The translations under genes and the position numbers were made by a program. A stretch of DNA of 64,000 nucleotides from positions 1 to 64,000 of the forward strand of contig JAHEWK010000016.1 of the NCBI GenBank assembly GCA_020740775.1, given 5' to 3'. Source of the stretch: Ilyonectria destructans (Eukaryota; Ascomycota; Sordariomycetes; Hypocreales; Nectriaceae). The number at the start of each line of letters is the position of its first letter. Position 1 is the first letter of the stretch. Under the pieces are notes generated by a model. That model was not told the origin of the DNA. It did not search any database and worked only from the letters and a program-made list of their open reading frames with translations. This document shows positions 37,138-49,902 of this stretch, piece by piece.

Positions 37138-40100
37138 TCATGTTAACAAAAGACTCCTAACGAAAAAGAAGTAGGGGCTTGCCTTCAAGGTAAACGGCGA
37201 TCCGCTCACGGAAGCACTGTTCTCACGCTTGCCGTCAGATGACCCCTCATCATGTTGAAATGCCACTTCGATCGAGTTGTTTTCATCTTCATCCTCCACG
37301 TCAAGTGTGAATTTGACCTTCTTCATGAAAAAGGTGCCATTGCAAGAACCCAAGCTCTCTTCGGAAAACCCTTCTCGCCGTTCTGTTGCGCCTCGTACGA
37401 GAAAAAACGGGCCATTGCTGTTGGGCTTGTCTGCACCCTTCTGTAGCTGTTCGAGTAGTTTTTCGAGAGGGTTGGAATCCGAGTCTGGAGTAGCCATATC
37501 ACGAATACGGCATCGTATGGTACCCTCGATAGTCACCGCTTTCCCGTTTCCGGAGTGCCTGAATGTCTCCACATCCCAGTAGAAAAGCGAAGCCTTCAGT
37601 CTAGTAGCAGCCTCGGCAAGAGGGTCACGACCAGCGGCGGAGAAATTGTAAGAAGATACCAGTTGCCTCATCTCGTATAACCGTGCGTTGTCATCGTCCA
37701 GCTTGAATCCATGAGTTAAGCAGTTGACATTGAGACGAATTTTGGCGTTTTTTGTTTCTTGAGTATCCGCAATCCGGTCAAAGCAGTTGTTCGCCCGGGT
37801 TTTGACCCAGTCGGGAATGTAGGATGGCGTGATGTACGGCTTTTCGTCATTGGTAGCGATAGTCCCAGAACCAACAGAGAGTAACAGATCCAAGCCAATA
37901 TGATCAGGCCAAAGGCGTCTCTTCTCGGCAAATGCCAAGTCCGTTGGATTATTGTAAAACAAACCGCCGTCAAAGAGGGCATTTGTATCGGTAGATCCTT
38001 TGAAAGGTTCGAAGTAGTAAGGGGAAGCCCAGGTGGCTCGAGACCTAGCCAAGATGTTAGAGAACCAGCCACAGTTGACCATTGAGAGCCGATTTGAGAG
38101 AGTGGGGTAATACGCAGCCGAGGTTGGTCTTCGTGAGTCGAGATATGTCTTGTCATCTCCATAGTCGTAGTTGGCAAGAAGAAGCGATTTGTCGTCCCGA
38201 CTGACTGTTACCGCCACCTTCGCCAGATTCAATAATGTCCCAGAACTTGCAGGCGGGCGAAGACCAAAATGAGGTCTATCCGGACCAACAACACTTCGTA
38301 GCTTTGCCTCAAAATTCTTGCTGTCGTTAAAACTCTCTGGCCCACTTTGAAACCACGACCAAAACCAAGAAGGAGTAGGTTGGGGCTTAAACCTTCCATC
38401 CACTAGACGAGAAAACTTCTGGTCTACTGTCTCAAGATCCCAATCATGGACACCGAGTCCAATTGCTATAAAGCCGCCTAGCAAAAACCATCTGTCAGTA
38501 ACAAAGCCCGCGTTGTTTGCGAACTTAACACTCGACTATAGGTCTTACCTGCGTTTGTGCCAATAATGAGATCAAAGAACTTGGCAATAGGAATTCCCAA
38601 TCCGATCTTTTGCTCAAGTCGTCTCAGGATGGCCAGCTCTATCATCCCACGGGTTCCCCCACCGTCCAACGACAAGACTCGTACTCCTGCCAGCGGTGGC
38701 TGCAAAGCAACAGAGACCGGCCAACTGCCATTTGGCTCCGTGGAATGACAGAGCAAGCATTTGCTATGCCTGGCAATGTGAAACGAACCCAAAACGTTGT
38801 CTTGATCCTGAAATCGTTCGATGCAAGTTCCGCATATGTAGTGGCCGCATGGAAGACGATACTCTGGCTTTCGTACCAGACAGCCGAAGCATGGCACGTT
38901 GGAAAGGCCTCTTGTAGTATTTCCCGACTCTGCAACGGCTGCTGTGAGGTATCCAGAATTACAATTGAGTGTGCTCAGGTGAGTTTTCACCATCCAATTC
39001 CGCCGCTCGTATGCCGGTTGTGTGTTGACGTCGGAGATCAGTTCCCGAACTCGCTCGTCAACTTTCTTCACAAACTTGGCTGCCTCAAATCCTGCGGCAT
39101 CAAAATCCCCGCTGCCGAGTTCCCCTCCAGAGCTTTGATGCCCTCTGCCATGACCCTTCCGGGTGTTGGTACATTTCTCACCGTTCGGACCCATGAAAGC
39201 GCAGACAAGGCTCCGGCTCAAGGACTTTTCGGCCGCTGCGGCGATTTTCTCCTTGAGTTCGTTGCTTAGAACGGAATCGGGAGTAGCCACCAATTCCGGA
39301 TTGACGGCCTCGATGACCAGGGACTCTGCGATCGCCTTGGCTGTGAAGCCGAAACGAAGTTCTGTAATATCTTTCTCGAGAGCGAGATGAAGGAAATTGC
39401 CGAGATGGTCGGTTGCAGAACCGGGTAGTTCCATCCGCTGGCGGCTCCTGCTGAAATCAAAGGCTCTGGGCTCTCCGCTCGCCAAGTGTTTGAAAGCATG
39501 GCGGAACAGCAGCTGCATTTGTCCAGAGTCAAGACGTGCCCAGTTTTGTTGCCGCTTGAGGCTCACAATGCTCGCGTCGCCGTCGATGCAACTCCCAAGC
39601 TTCTCTAGGCAACTCATTACTTCCATAGGGCTGGACACTGCAACCCGGTTATAATGAGTTTGAGGGATGCAACGGATTGTGAACGACGAGTAGTGAAGGT
39701 TAACGAGGTCTTTGAGAGTAGAGACATTGCCCTATATCAGAAATTTGATCAGTCTCACGGCTCTAGTCTCTAGATGATGAGTGAAGTCAAGGGACTGGTT
39801 GTTCTGATGCGAGAAATTGGAAAAGACGGCCTCATGAACCAGTTGCAGTATTCTAAACGGCGTACCTTTTCCATTAGGTCCCGGAGGAAAGGGTTTGTCA
39901 AGGCTTCCTGCTCCATCGTCATGAAAACTTCATCCTCCAGGGTCCTGTGACCATCAACTTTGGAAGGGTTCCATTTGGCGGGATCCCAGTTATTGATGAT
40001 GACGATTGCCGACGGGATTGAGTATTGGTTCACCACATGGCTGGTGCAGATCTGGCTCCATTTCAGCAAGCTGGTGACGGCATCGCAAACTAATCTAGTC

Positions 40101-42195: not shown

Positions 42196-45100
42196 TTACG
42201 AGAAGTGCATCACCAACACCCTGCCTGAGTGACAGCCAATAGCAACCTTCGATCCCGAGACAGCTGAGCACGATCGCCGATAATCACAAGGAAGCCAAAG
42301 CATATCGACACCCTGTTTCATAATCCACGCGTTATCCTTACTCACTTGGTAAAAGTTGGGGTTGACTTCAACCAGATTTAGGATTTTGTCAATATCAAGC
42401 GATAGATCCCGATTTAAGACCAGTATATCGATAAGTAATCGGGGATTATATATCGGATCGAATGACTGTCGGAGGATGGTCTTGTCGATGTCAATATCCT
42501 GGATGCAGCTGCCGGTAGCCACACACCAGATTTTGATTACGTTATCGTTAGACCTCGAAGCTAGCCGTCGGCCATCTGCTGAGAAAGCAATTGATGTCAC
42601 ATTATCTTGATGACGGTCGAGTCGACGGCGGCACTTTCCATCGACCATGTTCCAAATGATGATGGTGTTATCACCTAAACCTGAAGCTAGCCACTGATTA
42701 CCTCCTGAAAATGCGATTGAGGTTATCCTGCCGTAGCTCTCAAGTTTCTGGATATGAGTTCTGGTAGCGGTATTCCAGATCGTGACTGTCTCGTCGGCAC
42801 CAGATGCTAGCAGTTTGTTGTCTGGGGAGAAGGTGATTAAGGTCCATGAAGGATCATAGCCCTGTAGCGTCATAAGGCATGTCCCAGTGGTTGCATCCCA
42901 AATCTTGATTGTTTGATCAACTGAGCTTGACGCCAGCCGCTGGCCATCTGTTGAGAAGGTGAGCGAGATTACCTCGCGGTTGTGACGTGGGAGTGCTTGA
43001 AAGCCAGTGCTTTCAGCCGTTTCCAAGCCCGCAACAGCCTCGTTCGAGCTCGATGTTAGATAATGACTGTCTGCTGAGACGTGCGCCGAGTTCACATCGC
43101 GGTTATGCCTCTCTAATGTCTGGTGGCAATTATCAACCGCTGCATCCCAGATTTTGATTGTTCGATCAGTCGAACCTGATGCTAGGTGCCGGCCATCTGT
43201 TGAGAATGCGATTGAGTTTACCTCACCGCTGTGTCCTTCTAGTGTCTTGAGGCAGTTGCCAGTAGTCACATCCCATATCTTGATTGTTCGATCAGTCGAA
43301 CCCGATGCCAGGTGCTGGCCAACTGCTGAGAATGCGATTGAGTTTACCTCATCGCTATGTCCTTCCAGTGTCTTAAGGCAGTTGCCAGTGGTCGTATCCC
43401 ATATCTTGATTGTCTGACCACCTGAGCCCGATGCTAGCCGCTGGTTGTTCATGGCGAAGGCGACCGACGCTACCCAACCATTACCGTGACCCTCTAATGT
43501 CCGGATGCAAGCGCCATTAGCTGTATTCCAGACTTTTATCTGGTCATTCGAACCCGACGCTAGCAGCTGGCCGTCTTCCGAGAAGGCAGATGTCGTCACT
43601 AAGTCGCGATGACCTTCCGACGTCTGAACGCACCTGCCGGTACCTGCCTCCCAGATTTCGATGGTATTGCCGCAAGAACCCAAAGCTATTCGGCAGCTGC
43701 CTACCGATATGGTGATTGATTTGACGGGACCCTTGAGCAAACACAGGTCCTTGTGCGTAGTGGTAGCCAGATCCCAAATCCTGATTGTCTGATCATCCGA
43801 GCTGGAAGCTAGTTGTTGACCATCTGGAGAAAATGCGATCAAGGTTACCCTATCCTTATGGCCCTCAAGTGTCTGGAGGCAACTGGCGGAAGCCATATCC
43901 CAGATCTTGATTGTGCGATCATCCGAGCCTGAAGCTAGCCGTCGGCTATTCGGCGATAATGCGATCGAATTCACCCTATCCTTATGGCCCTCCAGCGTCT
44001 GGACGCAGGTATTCCAGTCAACGTCCATAATCGGCTTCAGTATCATCCAATCCGGCTCTTCCTCCATGAAGATCTCTCTGACTAAGCTACGGGTGGGACT
44101 AAACACGATTGCTGATGCGTAAGCCTGCAATGGAGCAATCTCTATTGCCCGTTTGTGGGAAAGGATAAATCGGCGCGCATCTCGAAGTAGTTCTGTCAGT
44201 TGTGGCGCTTCTAGGTTTCCCTGGGAACATGTTAGGCCGTCCCTCAAGTGTAGAAATGAATTACGATAACTCACTATTAAAGCCTCGAGCTTCTGGATTG
44301 CTAGTACTCCCTCTGACATACTGCGTAGCAGACTAAGAGCTTCCAGCCAATATAGAAACTTCTTTTTGAGGAAGGCATAAACGACGTTGCCGTCCTGTAG
44401 GTCTCTCGTCCTCTCTGCGGGATCCGAGTCATCGAGATGGTCAGCCCAGTAGATACAAGAATATCGGGTTGAAGCCAATGGGTCAGGGTCGGGCGGCGAG
44501 ACCTGATCGATTAGGAATCCTGGGACGCGTAGGCTGTAAATGTCGCGTCGGAGCGTCTCTGACAGAGCTTCCAGGGACCTCGAGAAGATGGCATGGTGCT
44601 GATCTCTCATGCCAGAAGGAAAGAGATATGTATTCGAGGACAAGAAGTCCTTGGCAGACTGATGAATAATGTAGACAACTTTGTCTCTGATTGTCAGGAA
44701 GGAGCCGCACATGCTTGTAATCTTCGAAATGTGGTCATTCGTTTTCTGAATATACGACGGTAAGCCTGAGAGGTGACCTAATTCCTCCAGATGAAGTGGG
44801 CGATAGGCTGTGGTGACTGTCGACAGTATAGATCTACACAATTCGGGATTTCGCCGCCCCAGCCTTTGGATCTGTTACATCATTCGACCGTACAGAGCTT
44901 CCAAGCCAGCAGGCACCTCCTTTACGACGTCCAGTGCGTCCCAGGTCTCAGAGACTGAAAGCTCCTGGCAGACCAAGGCCACCCAAAGGAACGTATCATT
45001 TGCGTTCGAGGCTAAGTGTTGCTGGAGAGCATCCCGTGTTTCGCTGTCGTAGTTCTTCGATCGAGCTAGCTCTTCTACCTTGTACGTGATGTATTTGCTA

Positions 45101-45891
45101 ACAGCGGCGGAGATCGACTCATGGTTCAGCTCAAGACAGAGGTAGAGCTTCTGCGTGGCAGCGTTCAGGCGCTCCTCGATTCTTGGCAAGCCACGACTAG
45201 ACACGATCAGCTTAGCTTGAGATGAAGAGGATATGTGGACGAGCAAGTCGAGAAGCTGGTCACGATGTGTCTCGCACTCGTTAAGCGCGTCGATGATTAA
45301 GAAGGTGTTCTGCCGGCTCGAGTCCTGCAAGGTGTTGATCAGAATCTTAGCCAGAGCATCCCACTGGTTCGTATCCTCAAATAGCTATTTGCCCGCATGA
45401 TCGTACTTCTTCCGTACGTGCGACCTCAGTAACGGCTCCTGGGCGAGGAGGAGATAGAGGAGGTCGCAGAGCACGGACGTCGCGTTATTGAGGCGCACGT
45501 CGGTGGCCTGGCAGAAGAAATAGGACAGGCGATTGTCGGGTTCCTTCTTGAGCTCGTCGATGATGCCGCAGAGTAGCATTGTCTTGCCCTTGCCAGGATC
45601 TCCCTTGATCCAGAGCAGTCGGCTTTGTTCGTCGTCGCGCCATCGCCGGAAGTCCGCGTGGTCGAGGATCCAGCTGGATGAGTCTTTCAGCAGGCCGCCC
45701 TTTTGCCGTTCGATGCGCGTCTTGTCATCGCGGGGGTCGGTCAATCGTAGGTCGGCAAGGCATCGATCGCGGTTCGGCTCGTTGTAGTTGTGGACTTCAA
45801 TGTGGTTTCCCACATGAACTCTGCTATGGCCGTCGGTCCTGAGGTCCCTAACGGAGTTCATTGTACAGTCGTCACGGTTTGCTGATGCCAT
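42196..45891 (-). pseudogene. NACHT-WD40 NLR with N-terminal HET-S-type amyloid motif, two stops
   Basis: A single minus-strand frame from ATG 45891, about 1230 codons, broken only by TAG 45385-45387 (after YDHAGK) and TAA 44875-44877 (after YGRMM), both fitting Gln. The N-terminus is short: DGHSRVHVGNHIEVHNYN within the first 40 residues resembles the HET-s-related amyloid motif (G-x-S-R-V-x-x-G-N). Then come DPRDDKTRIERQKGGLL, the NACHT P-loop WIKGDPGKGKTMLLCGI, FLIIDALNE (Walker B) and KLIVSSRG. WD40 repeats start near 44040; I count 12 (such as TLEGHKDRVNSIALSPN, RRLASGSDDRTIKIWD), several degenerate. The family includes the NWD2/HET-E receptors of Podospora. It is divergent from the HET-S-like gene at 46089. 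Confidence 0.9.
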
Positions 45892-46088
45892 TCTGGCATT
45901 GTCAATGGTGAGGGAGGTTCCCAGCCCGAACCAGCTGGCGGCTCACAGTTGGCCGTGGCGGCGCTTAATGGACCACTGGGACACGTTCTTTCGTCAGCCG
46001 CAACATCCCCTCACATGGTGCAGCTTGTTCCAACAAAGCTCCCATCGGACACCAGAAATGCCCGCGTCGATTTACCCACACGACCAGC
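45892..46088. promoter_or_regulatory. Divergent intergenic region between the NLR and the HET-S-like gene
   Basis: 197 bases separate the start codons at 45891 (minus) and 46089 (plus), so the two genes share an upstream region. No specific box is evident. Confidence 0.5.
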
Positions 46089-46384
46089 ATGGCCGACGTT
46101 TTCGGCATTGTGGCCGGCCTTCTGAGCGTTGCGGCCCTGTTCAACTGCGTCAACTGCTTCCAGTACATCGGTCGAGACTGCGAACGCTGCCAACTGACTG
46201 GATTTGTGCGTTATCTGGAGAGGAAATTGAGGTGGACGAGCCCAGCTTGTTGGCTCCGCAGGATGCCGCTGCTGGTTCTAAAAGTGTCTTATCAGAGGCT
46301 GTAGTGCAGAAGGGTGAAGGAGTCACTGGGGGAAATTATGCAAAGGACATGAAGAGCGAGGAGGATGCGAGAGTGCTGGTCTGA
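46089..46384 (+). pseudogene. HET-S-like (HeLo domain) effector with internal deletion
   Basis: The first 36 codons (MADVFGIVAGLLSVAALFNC, then VNCFQYIGRDCERCQL) match the start of the HeLo domain of HET-S/LopB-type proteins. The frame then jumps: another frame reads LSGEEIEVDEPSLLAPQDAA, AGSKSVLSEAVVQKGEG and NYAKDMKSEEDARVL, followed by a TGA at 46382-46384. That second part corresponds to the linker and the beginning of the C-terminal amyloid repeat in this family. Most of the HeLo domain is therefore deleted (I estimate about 150 residues) and the second amyloid repeat is not readable. In intact relatives the amyloid motif of a neighbouring NLR templates the effector, which then acts on membranes to cause cell death. 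This copy cannot do so. Confidence 0.75.
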
Positions 46385-46979
46385 AATAAATGTAGCGAGA
46401 ACATTTCAGCGCATGGTTCGGGTGTTGCGGATCAGCCCACACCCGGGCGGCGGGGTATCTTCCAACAACAACCAAGGTGTTCATTCTTCATGCCGTCGGG
46501 AAGCGGGGGCCGAGAATGACGTTAGCTAGGTTACCGTTGACCTTAGGTTAAGTTAGATACATGCAATTTCTTAAGATGTCTACCGAATAATGGCTTTTTC
46601 AGACTTCGACGTCCCTGTGTTATTACCCTTTACCCTGCAGACCCCCACTAGGTCTATTTGGAGGTGGTGGTAGGAGTCAGAATTGAATCTACATCTGTCA
46701 TTGACATTCGATGGCCATTTTTGCTTTCTTAACCAACTGCTATTAATGCATCTTCGATTTAAATGAATGCAAGGCTTGATGTGTCCTCTATGAAGATGAG
46801 GGGCCCCCAAGGAGCCTCAAGCATCGTCTTCGAATTGCCGAAGCCATCTTTTACTAAGCCGTCCGGGCGACATCCGCCACAAGATGGCGCTGATAATTGG
46901 TGGGCTACGCGCCTCGTCTGCAGCCGTGTCACGCACGGGAACAAGTTTACGGCTGCTCCTCTGACTCTGCTGTGGCATC
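46385..46979. other. Intergenic region before the second NACHT-WD40 gene
   Basis: Contains remnants downstream of the HET-S-like gene and probably the promoter and missing first codons of the next NLR. No separate gene is supported. Confidence 0.5.
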
Positions 46980-49902
46980 CATATCGGTAACAACATCTAC
47001 GGAACAGAAGATCGCTGCCTAACAGACTTGCGATCGACCGATCCCCGCGACGACAAGACGCGCATCGAGCAGACCAAGGGCGGCCTGCTAGAAGACTCGT
47101 ACTGCTGGATTCTCAACAACGCCGATTTCCAACAATGGCGCAACGACGAACAGAGCCGGCTGCTCTGGATTAAGGGCGATCCTGGCAAGGGCAAGACCAT
47201 ATTGCTCTGCGGCATTATCAACGAGTTGAAGAAGGAGACCACGAACCTGTTATCCTACTTCTTCTGCCAGGGCACCGACTCGCGCATCAACAATGCAATG
47301 GCTGTGCTGCGAGGCCTTATCTACCTCATTGTCGCCCAGCAGCCATCGCTCATCCCGCACGTACGGAAAAAGTATGACCACGCCGGCAAAGGCCTCTTCG
47401 AGGACGTGAATGCGTGGGTGGCCTTGGCTGAGATCTTTGCAAACATTCTGCAAGATCCGAACTTGAAGAACACCTTCTTGATCATCGACGCGCTCGACGA
47501 ATGCGTGGCGAATCTGCCGGAACTTCTCGACTTGATTGTCGAGAAGTCATCTGAATCTCCTCGTGTCAAGTGGATCGTCTCCAGTCGCAACTGGCCGAAC
47601 ATCGAGGAGCAGCTGGAAACAGCCAGACAGAAAGTTAGGCTGTATCTCGAGCTAAACGAAAAGTCCATCTCCACTGCTGTCAGCATATATATCAGTCACA
47701 AGGTGGATCAATTGGCGCGGCTGAAAGGATACAATAATGAAATACGAGATGCCGTTCAAAAGCACTTATCCTCAAATGCAAACGACACGTTCCTCTGGGT
47801 GGCCTTGGTCTGTCAAGATCTCCGGAAGATCCCACGACGGAACACTCGCGCTAAGTTAAATGCGTTTCCTCCTGGACTTGATTCCCTTTACAAGCGAATG
47901 ATGGAGCAAATTCGCAATTCGGACAATTCTGACCTGTACATGGGCATACTTGCCCTCCTGACAATTGTCTATCAACCCATTACCCTACAGGAACTCACGT
48001 CTTTTGTCGATATTCTGGAGGACATTTCCAATGAGCTCGACTCTTTAGTGGAGATCATAGGGCTTTGCGGATCGTTCCTGACTCTTCGCGACCGTACCAT
48101 CTACTTCGTCCATCAGTCTGCTAAAGACTTTTTACTTACAAAGGCATCCAGTGAAATCTTCCCTTCTGGGATGGAAGAAGGTCACTATATCATCTTCTCG
48201 AGGTCGCTACTGGTGATGTCCAAGTCACTGCGACGCGACATGTACGGCCTATGCGCCCCTGGATTTCCCATCGACAAAGTCAAACTGCCTGACCCAGACC
48301 CGTTAGCCCCAGCACGGTACTCATGCATCTACTGGGTTGACCACCTAAGCGATGCCATCTCGCACAAGACTTCGACGTCTATCGACGACCTCCACGATGA
48401 AGGCACAGTCCATCAGTTTCTCTGCAAAAAGTACCTATACTGGCTAGAGGCGCTCAGCCTTCTCCGAGGCATGCCGGAAGGAGTGGTTGCGATGACAAAG
48501 CTTACGACATTGCTAGTAGGCAGATTACTTTATCATATGGAACCTATAGAACTGATGTGCTAATTAATGTTTCTATTAGGAAAGGCTTGATAAGTCCTAT
48601 TTATTGGACCTTGTTCGAGATGCACACAGGTTTATCCTATCATATGGATGGGCGATAGGGAATGCGCCTCTTCAGGCATATGCGTCGGCGCTTATATTTA
48701 GTCCTAGGCAGAATGTAACGAGAAAACTGTTTAAACGGGAAGAGCCAAATTGGATTATCACTAAACCGGCTGTAGCAGAGGATTGGGATGCATATCTGGC
48801 GACGCTCGAGGGCCATAGCAATAAGGTTCACTCGGTGGCCTTCTCGCCTGATAGCCAGCGCCTCGCCTCGGCGTCATATGATAAGACCGTCAAGGTCTGG
48901 AATGCCGCGACGGGTCACTGCCAGGCAACGCTCGAGGGCCATAGCTCTGGGGTTATGTCGGTGGCCTTTTCACCGAGTGGCGAGCGTCTCGCATCGGCGT
49001 CATATAACAAGACCGTCAAGATCTGGAATATTACGACCGGCCACTGCCAGACGACGCTCGAGGGCCATAGCCATACAATTCGGTCGGTAGCCTTCTCAAC
49101 TGATAGCCAGCATCTCGCATCAGCGTCAGATGACAAGACTGTCAAGGTCTGGGACGCCGCAACGGGCCACTGCCAGGCGACGCTTGAGGGCCATAGCAAT
49201 TGGGTTCAGTCGGTGGCCTTCTCGCCCGATGGCCAGCGTCTCATATCGGCGTCATTAGATAAGACTGTTAAGGTCTGGAATGCCGCGACGGATCACTGCC
49301 AGGCGACGCTCGAGGGCCATAGCTCTGGGGTTATGTCGGTGGCCTTTTCACCGAGTGGCGAGCGTCTCGCATCGGCGTCATATGACAAGACCGTCAAGAT
49401 CTGGAATATTACGACCGGCCACTGCCAGACGACGCTCGAGGGCCATAGCCATACAATTCAGTCGGTAGCCTTCTCACCCGATAGCCAGCGCCTCGCATCG
49501 GCGTCAGACGACAAGACTGTCAAAATCTGGGATGCCACGACGGGCCACTGCCAGGCGACGCTTCATGTAGGCAGGCGCCTCTATACGGTCCGTTTCGACG
49601 CAACCGGCGCTCGTCTTCTTACAGATGCTGGCACTTTTGGCTTGAGCGTGCCCTCACCCTCACTCTCGCCCTCGCCACCCGCTACACTGTCTGCATCCGG
49701 TCCTCTGCACCACCTACGCCAACGTCAAGGCTATGGCATCAGTGCCGATCGTGTATGGATCACATATCAAGGTCAGAACCTGCTCTGGCTCCCATCAGAG
49801 TGTCGCCCAGAGACGTCAGCGATCGCAGCATTGACTGTCGCTCTTGGCTGTAGGTCGGGGCGGGTCTTGCTGTTCCGGTTCTCAGGGGAATCTCCTGGTT
49901 AG
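46980..49902 (+). CDS. NACHT-WD40 NLR, open throughout, start codon not found
   Basis: The frame is open from 46965 with no ATG before the NACHT; the first residues (GIHIGNNIYGTEDRCLTDL) carry an amyloid-type motif, so the true start probably lies in an upstream exon or was lost. Then follow DPRDDKTRIEQTKGGLLEDS, the P-loop WIKGDPGKGKTILLCGI, FLIIDALDEC (Walker B), KWIVSSRNWP and the winged-helix-like region IYFVHQSAKDFL. A 64-base intron (48516-48579) follows LTTLL, and exon 2 reads ERLDKSYLLDLVRDAHRFIL. Six full WD40 repeats of 42 residues (TLEGHSSGVMSVAFSPSGER, LASASYDKTVKIWN types) and a partial seventh precede the C-terminal cap ending VALGCRSGRVLLFRFSG. Repeats 2-3 and 5-6 are almost identical at the DNA level, 378 bases apart. 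About 950 residues. Likely an incompatibility-type receptor. Confidence 0.88.

Follow-up and report, generated by a model that had tools for sequence, protein, structure and literature searches.

A degraded HET-S-type locus flanked by two NACHT-WD40 receptors in Ilyonectria destructans

HET-S systems and layout of the locus

Most descriptions of HET-S and NWD2 present them as an effector and a receptor encoded by linked genes, and in the sensor-helper NLR networks of plants several sensors act on few executors. Compared with those networks, the system considered here would rely on amyloid templating of a non-NLR effector, and no homology is claimed. The closest described system is het-S/NWD2 of Podospora anserina, with HRAM1 amyloid signalling, and our locus resembles what parts of PMC3321046, PMC4344463 and PMC4518210 describe in its gene neighbourhood, with genes in divergent or parallel order. 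It differs from it in that two receptors flank the effector, in that the effector is dead in the window (the whole 64-kb stretch analysed, contig C8 of the 71.7-Mb genome) and in sister copies, and in that receptors outnumber a single intact effector. An excess of receptors over effectors per motif, mostly unlinked, is reported in parts of PMC9815663 for a PNP_UDP-associated HRAM variant and basidiomycete amyloid NLRs, and the authors speculate there that many NLRs acting on one effector relieve linkage. Here the receptor excess is alike, whereas the class is canonical HET-S and linked, triple and effectorless loci occur in one genome, divergent enough for selection to be measured, where that speculation becomes directly testable. 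Among the titles that our paper searches listed, none concerned a receptor-effector-receptor trio for HET-S, which is a weak sign of absence.

In the window, receptor A, a het-S remnant and receptor B lie side by side, and all three are broken (Table 1). Pfam confirmed NACHT and WD40 in both flanking genes, as a first-pass annotation had proposed. We consider it reasonably likely, judging from sequence, that the window contains one copy, now dead, of a HET-S/NWD2-type cell-death cluster that has undergone duplication and belongs to a birth-and-death family with several amyloid-headed receptors on one HET-S, which would be a variant of HET-S/NWD2 signalling with a predicted function.

Table 1. 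Positions of the features of the locus within the window.
Feature	Position	Strand	Basis
Receptor A, NACHT-WD40 with A head, broken	42196..45891	-	Pfam NPHP3_N/NACHT and 11 WD40 stretches; ORFs
Receptor A frame pieces (n=3)	45385-45942, 44875-45384, 42196-44874	-	ORFs
Receptor A HET-s-type amyloid head (r0)	45805..45858	-	PF17108, PF11558, R1 profile
Receptor A junction of A head and body of other origin, conserved DPRDDKTRI tract	45710..45735	-	Site-by-site comparison; 150-nt identity bins
Receptor A in-frame stop, NACHT region	45385..45387	-	ORFs
Receptor A second in-frame stop	44875..44877	-	ORFs
het-S remnant, HeLo start, then large internal deletion	46089..46196	+	PF14479 below cut-off; DNA alignment
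het-S remnant, linker, first prion-domain repeat (46334-46381) and stop; second repeat absent	46199..46384	+	PF11558; alignment
Receptor B gap of ~260 bp relative to sister copies (start codon and most of head)	46975..46982	+	Alignment with sisters
Receptor B amyloid head stub, IHIGNN	46977..46994	+	Alignment; low R1/R2 scores
Receptor B NACHT exon (type B), open, without start	46983..48515	+	ORFs, Pfam
Receptor B probable intron (GT...AG), same place as modelled intron of L032 receptor B	48516..48579	+	Inferred
Receptor B WD40 exon, six WD40 stretches	48580..49902	+	ORFs, Pfam

Three broken genes

PF17108 (HET-S) matched the N-terminus of receptor A with 25.1 bits (E 1.7e-5), above its cut-off of 24.3, PF11558 matched it below its own cut-off (E 3.7e-4), and the head scored 23.2 bits against an R1 profile built in this analysis. 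In receptor A this one HET-s motif precedes the NACHT and WD40 parts, as in NWD2-type receptors, and the suggested amyloid motif of the minus-strand receptor is borne out. Its reading frame is cut by two stops and, as read from the site-by-site comparison, receptor A combines an A head with a body of mosaic origin.

The HeLo family PF14479 matched the start of the het-S remnant, as expected from the first-pass annotation, with only 17.4 bits (E 0.004), which is below the cut-off of 23.2. At the DNA level, however, this piece and its promoter align unbroken with the first part of HeLo in L017, the intact gene, and in four sister stretches (L018, L023, L031 and L032). A HeLo scan of positions 46025-46304, a piece that represents another reading frame, found no family, and comparison of the remnant with phages gave no match. 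In the genome profile search PF11558 reached 26.3 bits at 46316-46435, with one stop inside (E 0.033 for the first repeat alone), which with the alignment upholds the proposed HeLo gene with a linker and a first HET-S-type repeat. The HeLo domain is incomplete owing to the internal deletion, and the prion domain ends at a stop after one repeat. That deletion, also noticed before, is borne out by the alignment with intact and sister copies and is not local to the window, being common to the window, L018 and L032 and in part to L023. Because it is largely shared among sister loci, the loss of het-S probably predates the duplications.

An open frame in the window spans the linker and the first repeat, and a remnant in use as a short single-repeat peptide, seeding or blocking HET-S, would fit it; we regard this as extremely improbable and discarded it, since the frame varies among copies, with a one-base difference in the linker of L018 and two stops in L023.

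Receptor B had been said to read through, which does not hold: compared with L018, L023 and L032, where type B heads are intact, it lacks the start codon together with the greater part of the head. Its NCBI protein (P0127) is labelled partial, and Pfam detected no HET-s motif in the receptor. The head stub scored 4.0 bits against R2 and -1.3 against R1, and with the head mostly deleted the single motif of NWD2-type receptors is missing.

The two stops of receptor A had been taken as RIP-type. The stops are real, but the composite RIP index was negative in all eight stretches for which it was computed (-0.62 to -0.71 in the window segments). Private changes of receptor B are C>T/G>A in excess (25/41), and just 9 of these 25 stand in a CpA/TpG context; RIP as the cause of decay was rejected, despite that excess, as neither index nor context fits.

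Sister loci, selection and the surviving HET-S

The trio of A, het-S and B occurs in the window, in L018 and in L023, the two extra copies lying at C13:966 kb and C13:426 kb, and a receptor adjoins the effector in these three and in L017. The proposed HET-S-type effector next to NLRs with related amyloid-type heads is supported, and its second flanking receptor recurs at two more places. By contrast, a degraded effector beside an intact receptor, as proposed for the window, fails there and applies to the sisters L018, L023 and L032.

A search of the genome for an intact HeLo effector of the same motif class, suggested by the first-pass annotation, yielded one. At C13:959530-960393, HeLo (196.5 bits) and a two-repeat prion domain (106.6 bits) match their full profiles in one frame with no stop, and the product matches the solved structures 2wvn and 2kj3 (HeLo, prion domain). 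This is the single intact het-S among 19 places counted. Another candidate, at C28, has every domain and was set aside for two frame changes, which may be an assembly error. Three short HET-S matches lie at C12:508 kb, C4:2079 kb and C27:14.5 kb.

Het-S is broken at the other 18 of these 19 places, both window receptors are broken, and receptor A of L018 ends next to a zinc-knuckle ORF (NCBI protein P0248, without WD40). All this suits a plain graveyard, in which, after duplication of the cluster and death of the effector, the receptors merely persist because they have had too little time to decay, with no trans signalling. We hold such a graveyard to be rather unlikely, given that dN/dS was 0.17-0.29 among four B copies (window B excluded), that tests on four pairs showed an excess of synonymous change (p 1.5e-5 to 3e-11) and that five receptors bearing HET-s-type heads have open NACHT-WD40 models. 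The A pair L018-L023 gave a dN/dS of 0.25. The truncated window B gave 0.23-0.35, close to the open copies (gene conversion left aside), so that dN/dS cannot date the loss of function.

Parts of PMC3321046 and PMC4344463 report that the Podospora het-S/nwd2 pair is polymorphic, with nwd2 inactive in het-s strains. An intact het-S may likewise sit in the trio of other strains, and under strain polymorphism each trio would have one there, kept by balancing selection, with dead alleles here. The main deletions are common to loci on different contigs, which in the one strain compared argues for an old loss and makes such polymorphism improbable.

The first-pass annotation had left a choice between a non-functional allele and an effector elsewhere. 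For the window copy the answer is a non-functional one, whereas purifying selection and the intact HET-S gene found at C13:959.5 kb favour the second option for the sister receptors. Several receptors on one HET-S, our preferred reading, is supported by the recurrence of the trio, the shared HeLo deletions, the constrained open receptors (five with full open models), the single intact HET-S, the apparent co-location of A-type and B-type receptors with HET-S in other fungi and head scores above shuffles (see below for both). It is weakened by the 41 HeLo matches in the genome, as effectors with other motifs could exist, by a C28 receptor whose head gave no score against the R1 and R2 profiles, and by the similar dN/dS of the truncated window B. 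In a working cluster, by analogy with what is established for Podospora, the WD40 repeats of each receptor would sense a ligand, NACHT would then drive receptor oligomerisation, the N-terminal motif would adopt the fold of one beta-solenoid rung, thereby templating the HET-S prion domain, and the HeLo domain would perforate the membrane. Surviving receptors would signal in trans to one HET-S, several receptors sharing one executioner, and with such trans signalling a receptor would keep its use after losing its linked effector.

Amyloid heads and their exchange

Heads scored 11-23 bits against R1 or 7-20 bits against R2, the best of 5000 shuffles reaching 5.0 and 9.5. A heads resemble R1 (22-23 bits, against 7-12), and B heads score about equally or are slightly R2-like. 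In other fungi, A-type and B-type receptors are each apparently co-located with a 92% identical HET-S; linkage was taken from equal lengths of the source contigs, with one length match (3,104) across different sources left out, and in one case from consecutive locus tags (B-type receptor and HET-S of Fusarium falciforme). In Dactylonectria macrodidyma an A'-like body, HET-S and B are on contigs of equal length.

One could read from these scores, from the three copies in which A and B both flank the effector and from the apparent co-location in D. macrodidyma that A and B are obligate partners copying rungs R1 and R2 of HET-S. We find this very unlikely: charge signs at positions 9 and 13 are the same in B as in A, which ruled out complementary charges, and L032 has a B with no A within the 9 kb examined.

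Both signs are reversed (+ at 9, - at 13) in a single one of 36 motif-bearing heads. This head, B' of L022 (C13:758 kb), is wedged between the remnant of an old head and its body. No donor for it was found in this genome, the three other matches spanning 74 of 261 bases, in the old-head part. Heads and bodies of receptors are, on this sequence record, exchangeable. As a tentative possibility, one surviving HET-S would serve a recombining receptor pool, its heads swapped where a conserved DNA hinge lies between the head and the P-loop, most heads (R1 signs) docking on R2 and B' on R1, with the wiring evolving by exchange and the executioner fixed. Near-identical NODs with distinct N-terminal domains have already been reported for fungal NLRs in parts of PMC4986451; what differs at L022 is an exchange fossil, a new amyloid head lying between old remnant and body, and this insertion represents one route to rewire amyloid receptors.

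Organization of the cluster and its copies in the genome

All three genes of the trio, namely a minus-strand NACHT-WD40 receptor (A), a het-S remnant and a plus-strand receptor (B), are broken in the window, which harbors a dead cluster that is ordinary in itself. Using Pfam profiles, we detected a HET-s-type motif at the N-terminus of receptor A with PF17108 (25.1 bits, cut-off 24.3), and its match to PF11558 (E 3.7e-4) was under the cut-off. The second prion repeat is absent from the het-S remnant. Compared with the sister loci L018, L023 and L032, receptor B carries a deletion of about 260 bp around 46975-46982, which removed its start and most of its amyloid head, and its NCBI entry (P0127) is partial.

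Components of the broken trio in the window (C8:1-64000)
Feature	Position	Strand	State
NACHT-WD40 receptor A	42196-45891	-	Three frame pieces, interrupted by two stops
In-frame stops of receptor A	45385-45387 and 44875-44877	-	
het-S remnant	46089-46384	+	HeLo start, large internal deletion, linker and first prion repeat, then stop
NACHT-WD40 receptor B	46983-49902	+	Open body, probable 64-nt intron

Patatin-like phospholipase pieces were also observed in the window at 37138-39731 on the minus strand and their PF01734 scores of 23.6 and 20.2 bits do not reach the cut-off of 27.7. RING-like and P-loop-like text was recognized by eye upstream, and the pieces perhaps correspond to another fungal immune-type gene.

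A search of the genome (71.67 Mb, 74 contigs) revealed the order of the trio, inverted, at L018 (C13:961.5-967.6 kb) and L023 (C13:423-431 kb), as well as a B receptor with a HeLo scrap at L032 (contig C40). At L017 (C13:956-960 kb), a related receptor, A', and an intact het-S gene are arranged back to back, the order on C13 being A', intact HET-S, B, dead HET-S and A over about 11 kb in total. Five open NACHT-WD40 models with HET-s-type heads were found: A' (P0244), B of L018 (P0124), B of L023 (P0126), B of L032 (a model of 1089 aa built in this analysis) and B' of L022 (P0125; C13:758 kb). In L023, receptor A consists of two open pieces; in L018 it has 613 aa, with WD40 absent in its NCBI entry (P0248). 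The family of this cluster is predicted to be a new variant of HET-S/NWD2 signalling. Receptor A of L018 is directly followed by a zinc-knuckle ORF (L018:6586-7809, minus strand), and the het-S scrap of L032 has a MULE transposase upstream (L032:2063-3085, minus strand).

Effector decay and constraint on the receptors

Only one of 19 het-S places, C13:959530-960393, is intact. This count, which is our own tally, takes in weak places such as C13:603 kb (E 0.13) and omits receptor heads, distant HeLo genes (at most 36% identity), in which other motifs may be present, and three short matches (C12:508 kb, C4:2079 kb and C27:14.5 kb). PF11558 matched 28 places in the genome and the intact HET-S protein, used as query, 39; HeLo matches amounted to 41, which implies that the genome has effectors of other classes as well. 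The C28 copy has every domain with two frame changes, the C2:2070 kb copy has three stops, the C4 copy (L031) has HeLo in frame with an unrelated tail, and the remaining places are fragments. In L031 (2235-4442, minus strand), the het-S promoter and HeLo run into this tail at the C-terminus within a single open frame (736 aa), the NCBI entry of which is a partial HeLo protein (P0095). Prion-domain fragments at L020:4647-4772, L021:5089-5280 and L025:4104-4310 adjoin helicase-like ORFs (DEAD in L020), the stretches of L020 and L021 being 93-97% identical.

The intact C13 HET-S matches solved Podospora HeLo and prion-domain chains, and carries histidine at residue 33 and aspartate at residue 23, the latter as in chain 2wvn. 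PMC3531502 reports that H33P turns HET-S HET-s-like; residues 33 and 23 do not settle whether the C13 protein would belong to the HET-S or the HET-s class. Among the best 120 matches, proteins of Dactylonectria estremocensis, Fusarium oxysporum and F. falciforme reach 92-95% identity to the intact C13 HET-S, compared with 53-80% for the other larger copies in its own genome, a difference that could reflect either strong constraint or intergeneric transfer.

We aligned the het-S copies of the window, L018, L023 and L032, the C4 copy and the intact gene (L017). The window, L018 and L032 have one main HeLo junction in common, together with small deletions of 18 and 3 bases. The L023 copy agrees with them at the left breakpoint and in a second deletion (about 43 bases), keeps about 57 extra HeLo bases and lacks the 18- and 3-base deletions. 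The simplest history would be a single broken het-S ancestor with one branch trimmed further; alternatively, the broken form would have spread by gene conversion. The effector was probably the first to die, before the duplications.

The dead effector (K 0.02-0.105) and the DNA that follows it (0.06-0.09) have diverged to the same order as B synonymous sites (0.05-0.19). NG86 estimates of dN/dS over the NACHT exon, in which concerted evolution is ignored, were 0.17-0.35 for the ten pairs of five B copies (0.17-0.29 for the six pairs without the window copy and 0.23-0.35 for the four including it) and 0.25 for the L018-L023 pair of A. Synonymous change was in excess in four tested pairs (p 1.5e-5 to 3e-11, with rounded site totals for the A pair). 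Since the truncated window B gives nearly equal ratios, dN/dS cannot date when a copy stopped working. The receptors appear to have lived on after effector loss.

Head types and exchange between receptors

Profiles of the two prion-domain repeats were made from 115 R1 and 107 R2 sequences, the best of 5000 shuffles scoring 5.0 (R1) and 9.5 (R2). The A heads (n = 3) scored 22-23 bits with R1 and 7-12 with R2, the R2 values of L018 and L023 (7.4 and 6.8) being not above chance against the shuffles. Scores with R1 and R2 were 11-12 and 11-14 bits for B heads (n = 3), 19.2 and 18.7 for A', and 12.5 and 19.7 for B', and neither the truncated window B head nor the C28 head passed either profile. Our own pattern recovered the motif in 36 of 231 receptor proteins among the best 120 of each search; in these heads, some of which are near copies of one another, position 9 is negative in 22 and position 13 positive in 28, as in R1, and five are positive at position 9, with only B' combining this with a negative position 13. 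According to PMC4344463, the charges at positions 4 and 9 of NWD2 complement those of repeat 2. Such complementarity fits a docking of R1-type heads on R2, and we infer that the B' head would dock on R1.

The minus-strand receptor of the window is a mosaic. In 150-nt bins against eight comparison stretches from seven loci, its nearest relative was A at 46000-45701 (93-97%), C13:746 at 45700-44951 (84-93%), C18 and C33 at 44950-44501 (85-94%) and C39 or C13:746 at 44500-44051 (83-96%). The switch from head to body falls within a conserved tract encoding DPRDDKTRI, and the C39 relative has NACHT_N (PF17100) where others carry the head. The body of L022 was at least 0.98 identical to B of L032 in 15 of 17 bins of 100 nt; its new head sits between the old B-head remnant and the body, and no other match to the new-head DNA was found in this genome. 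Heads with A-type linkers, as classed by our own pattern (which could not split 3 of 42 listed sequences), stand on B-like bodies in F. oxysporum (P0130), D. macrodidyma (P0131) and the C28 receptor. As judged from these comparisons, heads and bodies are exchangeable; near-identical NOD domains with distinct N-termini are already described in PMC4986451. Upstream of the body of the C13:746 kb receptor (L054), a glycine/glutamine/asparagine-rich stretch is readable in another frame and may be another amyloid-type head.

Linkage of receptors and effectors

In the working cycle taken from Podospora (PMC3321046, PMC4344463 and PMC3531502), receptor oligomerisation would fold the heads into a beta-solenoid, the folded heads would template the HET-S prion domain, and HeLo would then damage the membrane. 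The addition made by the present family is evolutionary, in that receptors outlive their linked effectors. NLR genes are next to 98 of 155 HeLo-related genes (PMC4518210); linkage is thus frequent without being universal, and small NLR clusters are described as frequent in Sordariales in PMC12258605. PMC9815663 speculates that linkage would become less necessary where many NLRs act on one effector; for the HET-S class, loci of the kind described here are the outcome expected under that idea.

Among the best 120 matches of each search, a receptor is placed on the same contig as HET-S, as deduced from equal source-sequence lengths that do not imply spacing, in F. falciforme (B-type, 83% identity, consecutive locus tags 014828/014829), F. 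oxysporum (A-type, 70%), Thelonectria olida (68% to A'), Chaetomidium leptoderma (62%), F. oxysporum f. sp. matthiolae (54%) and two further contigs. In the same lists, Dactylonectria macrodidyma has a receptor body resembling A' (87%), a HET-S that is shortened and a receptor with a B head, all on source sequences of equal length (947,865). In its protein P0246, an A'-like body is joined to a PF05699-listed segment, which we take to be of the hAT family, in place of the amyloid head.
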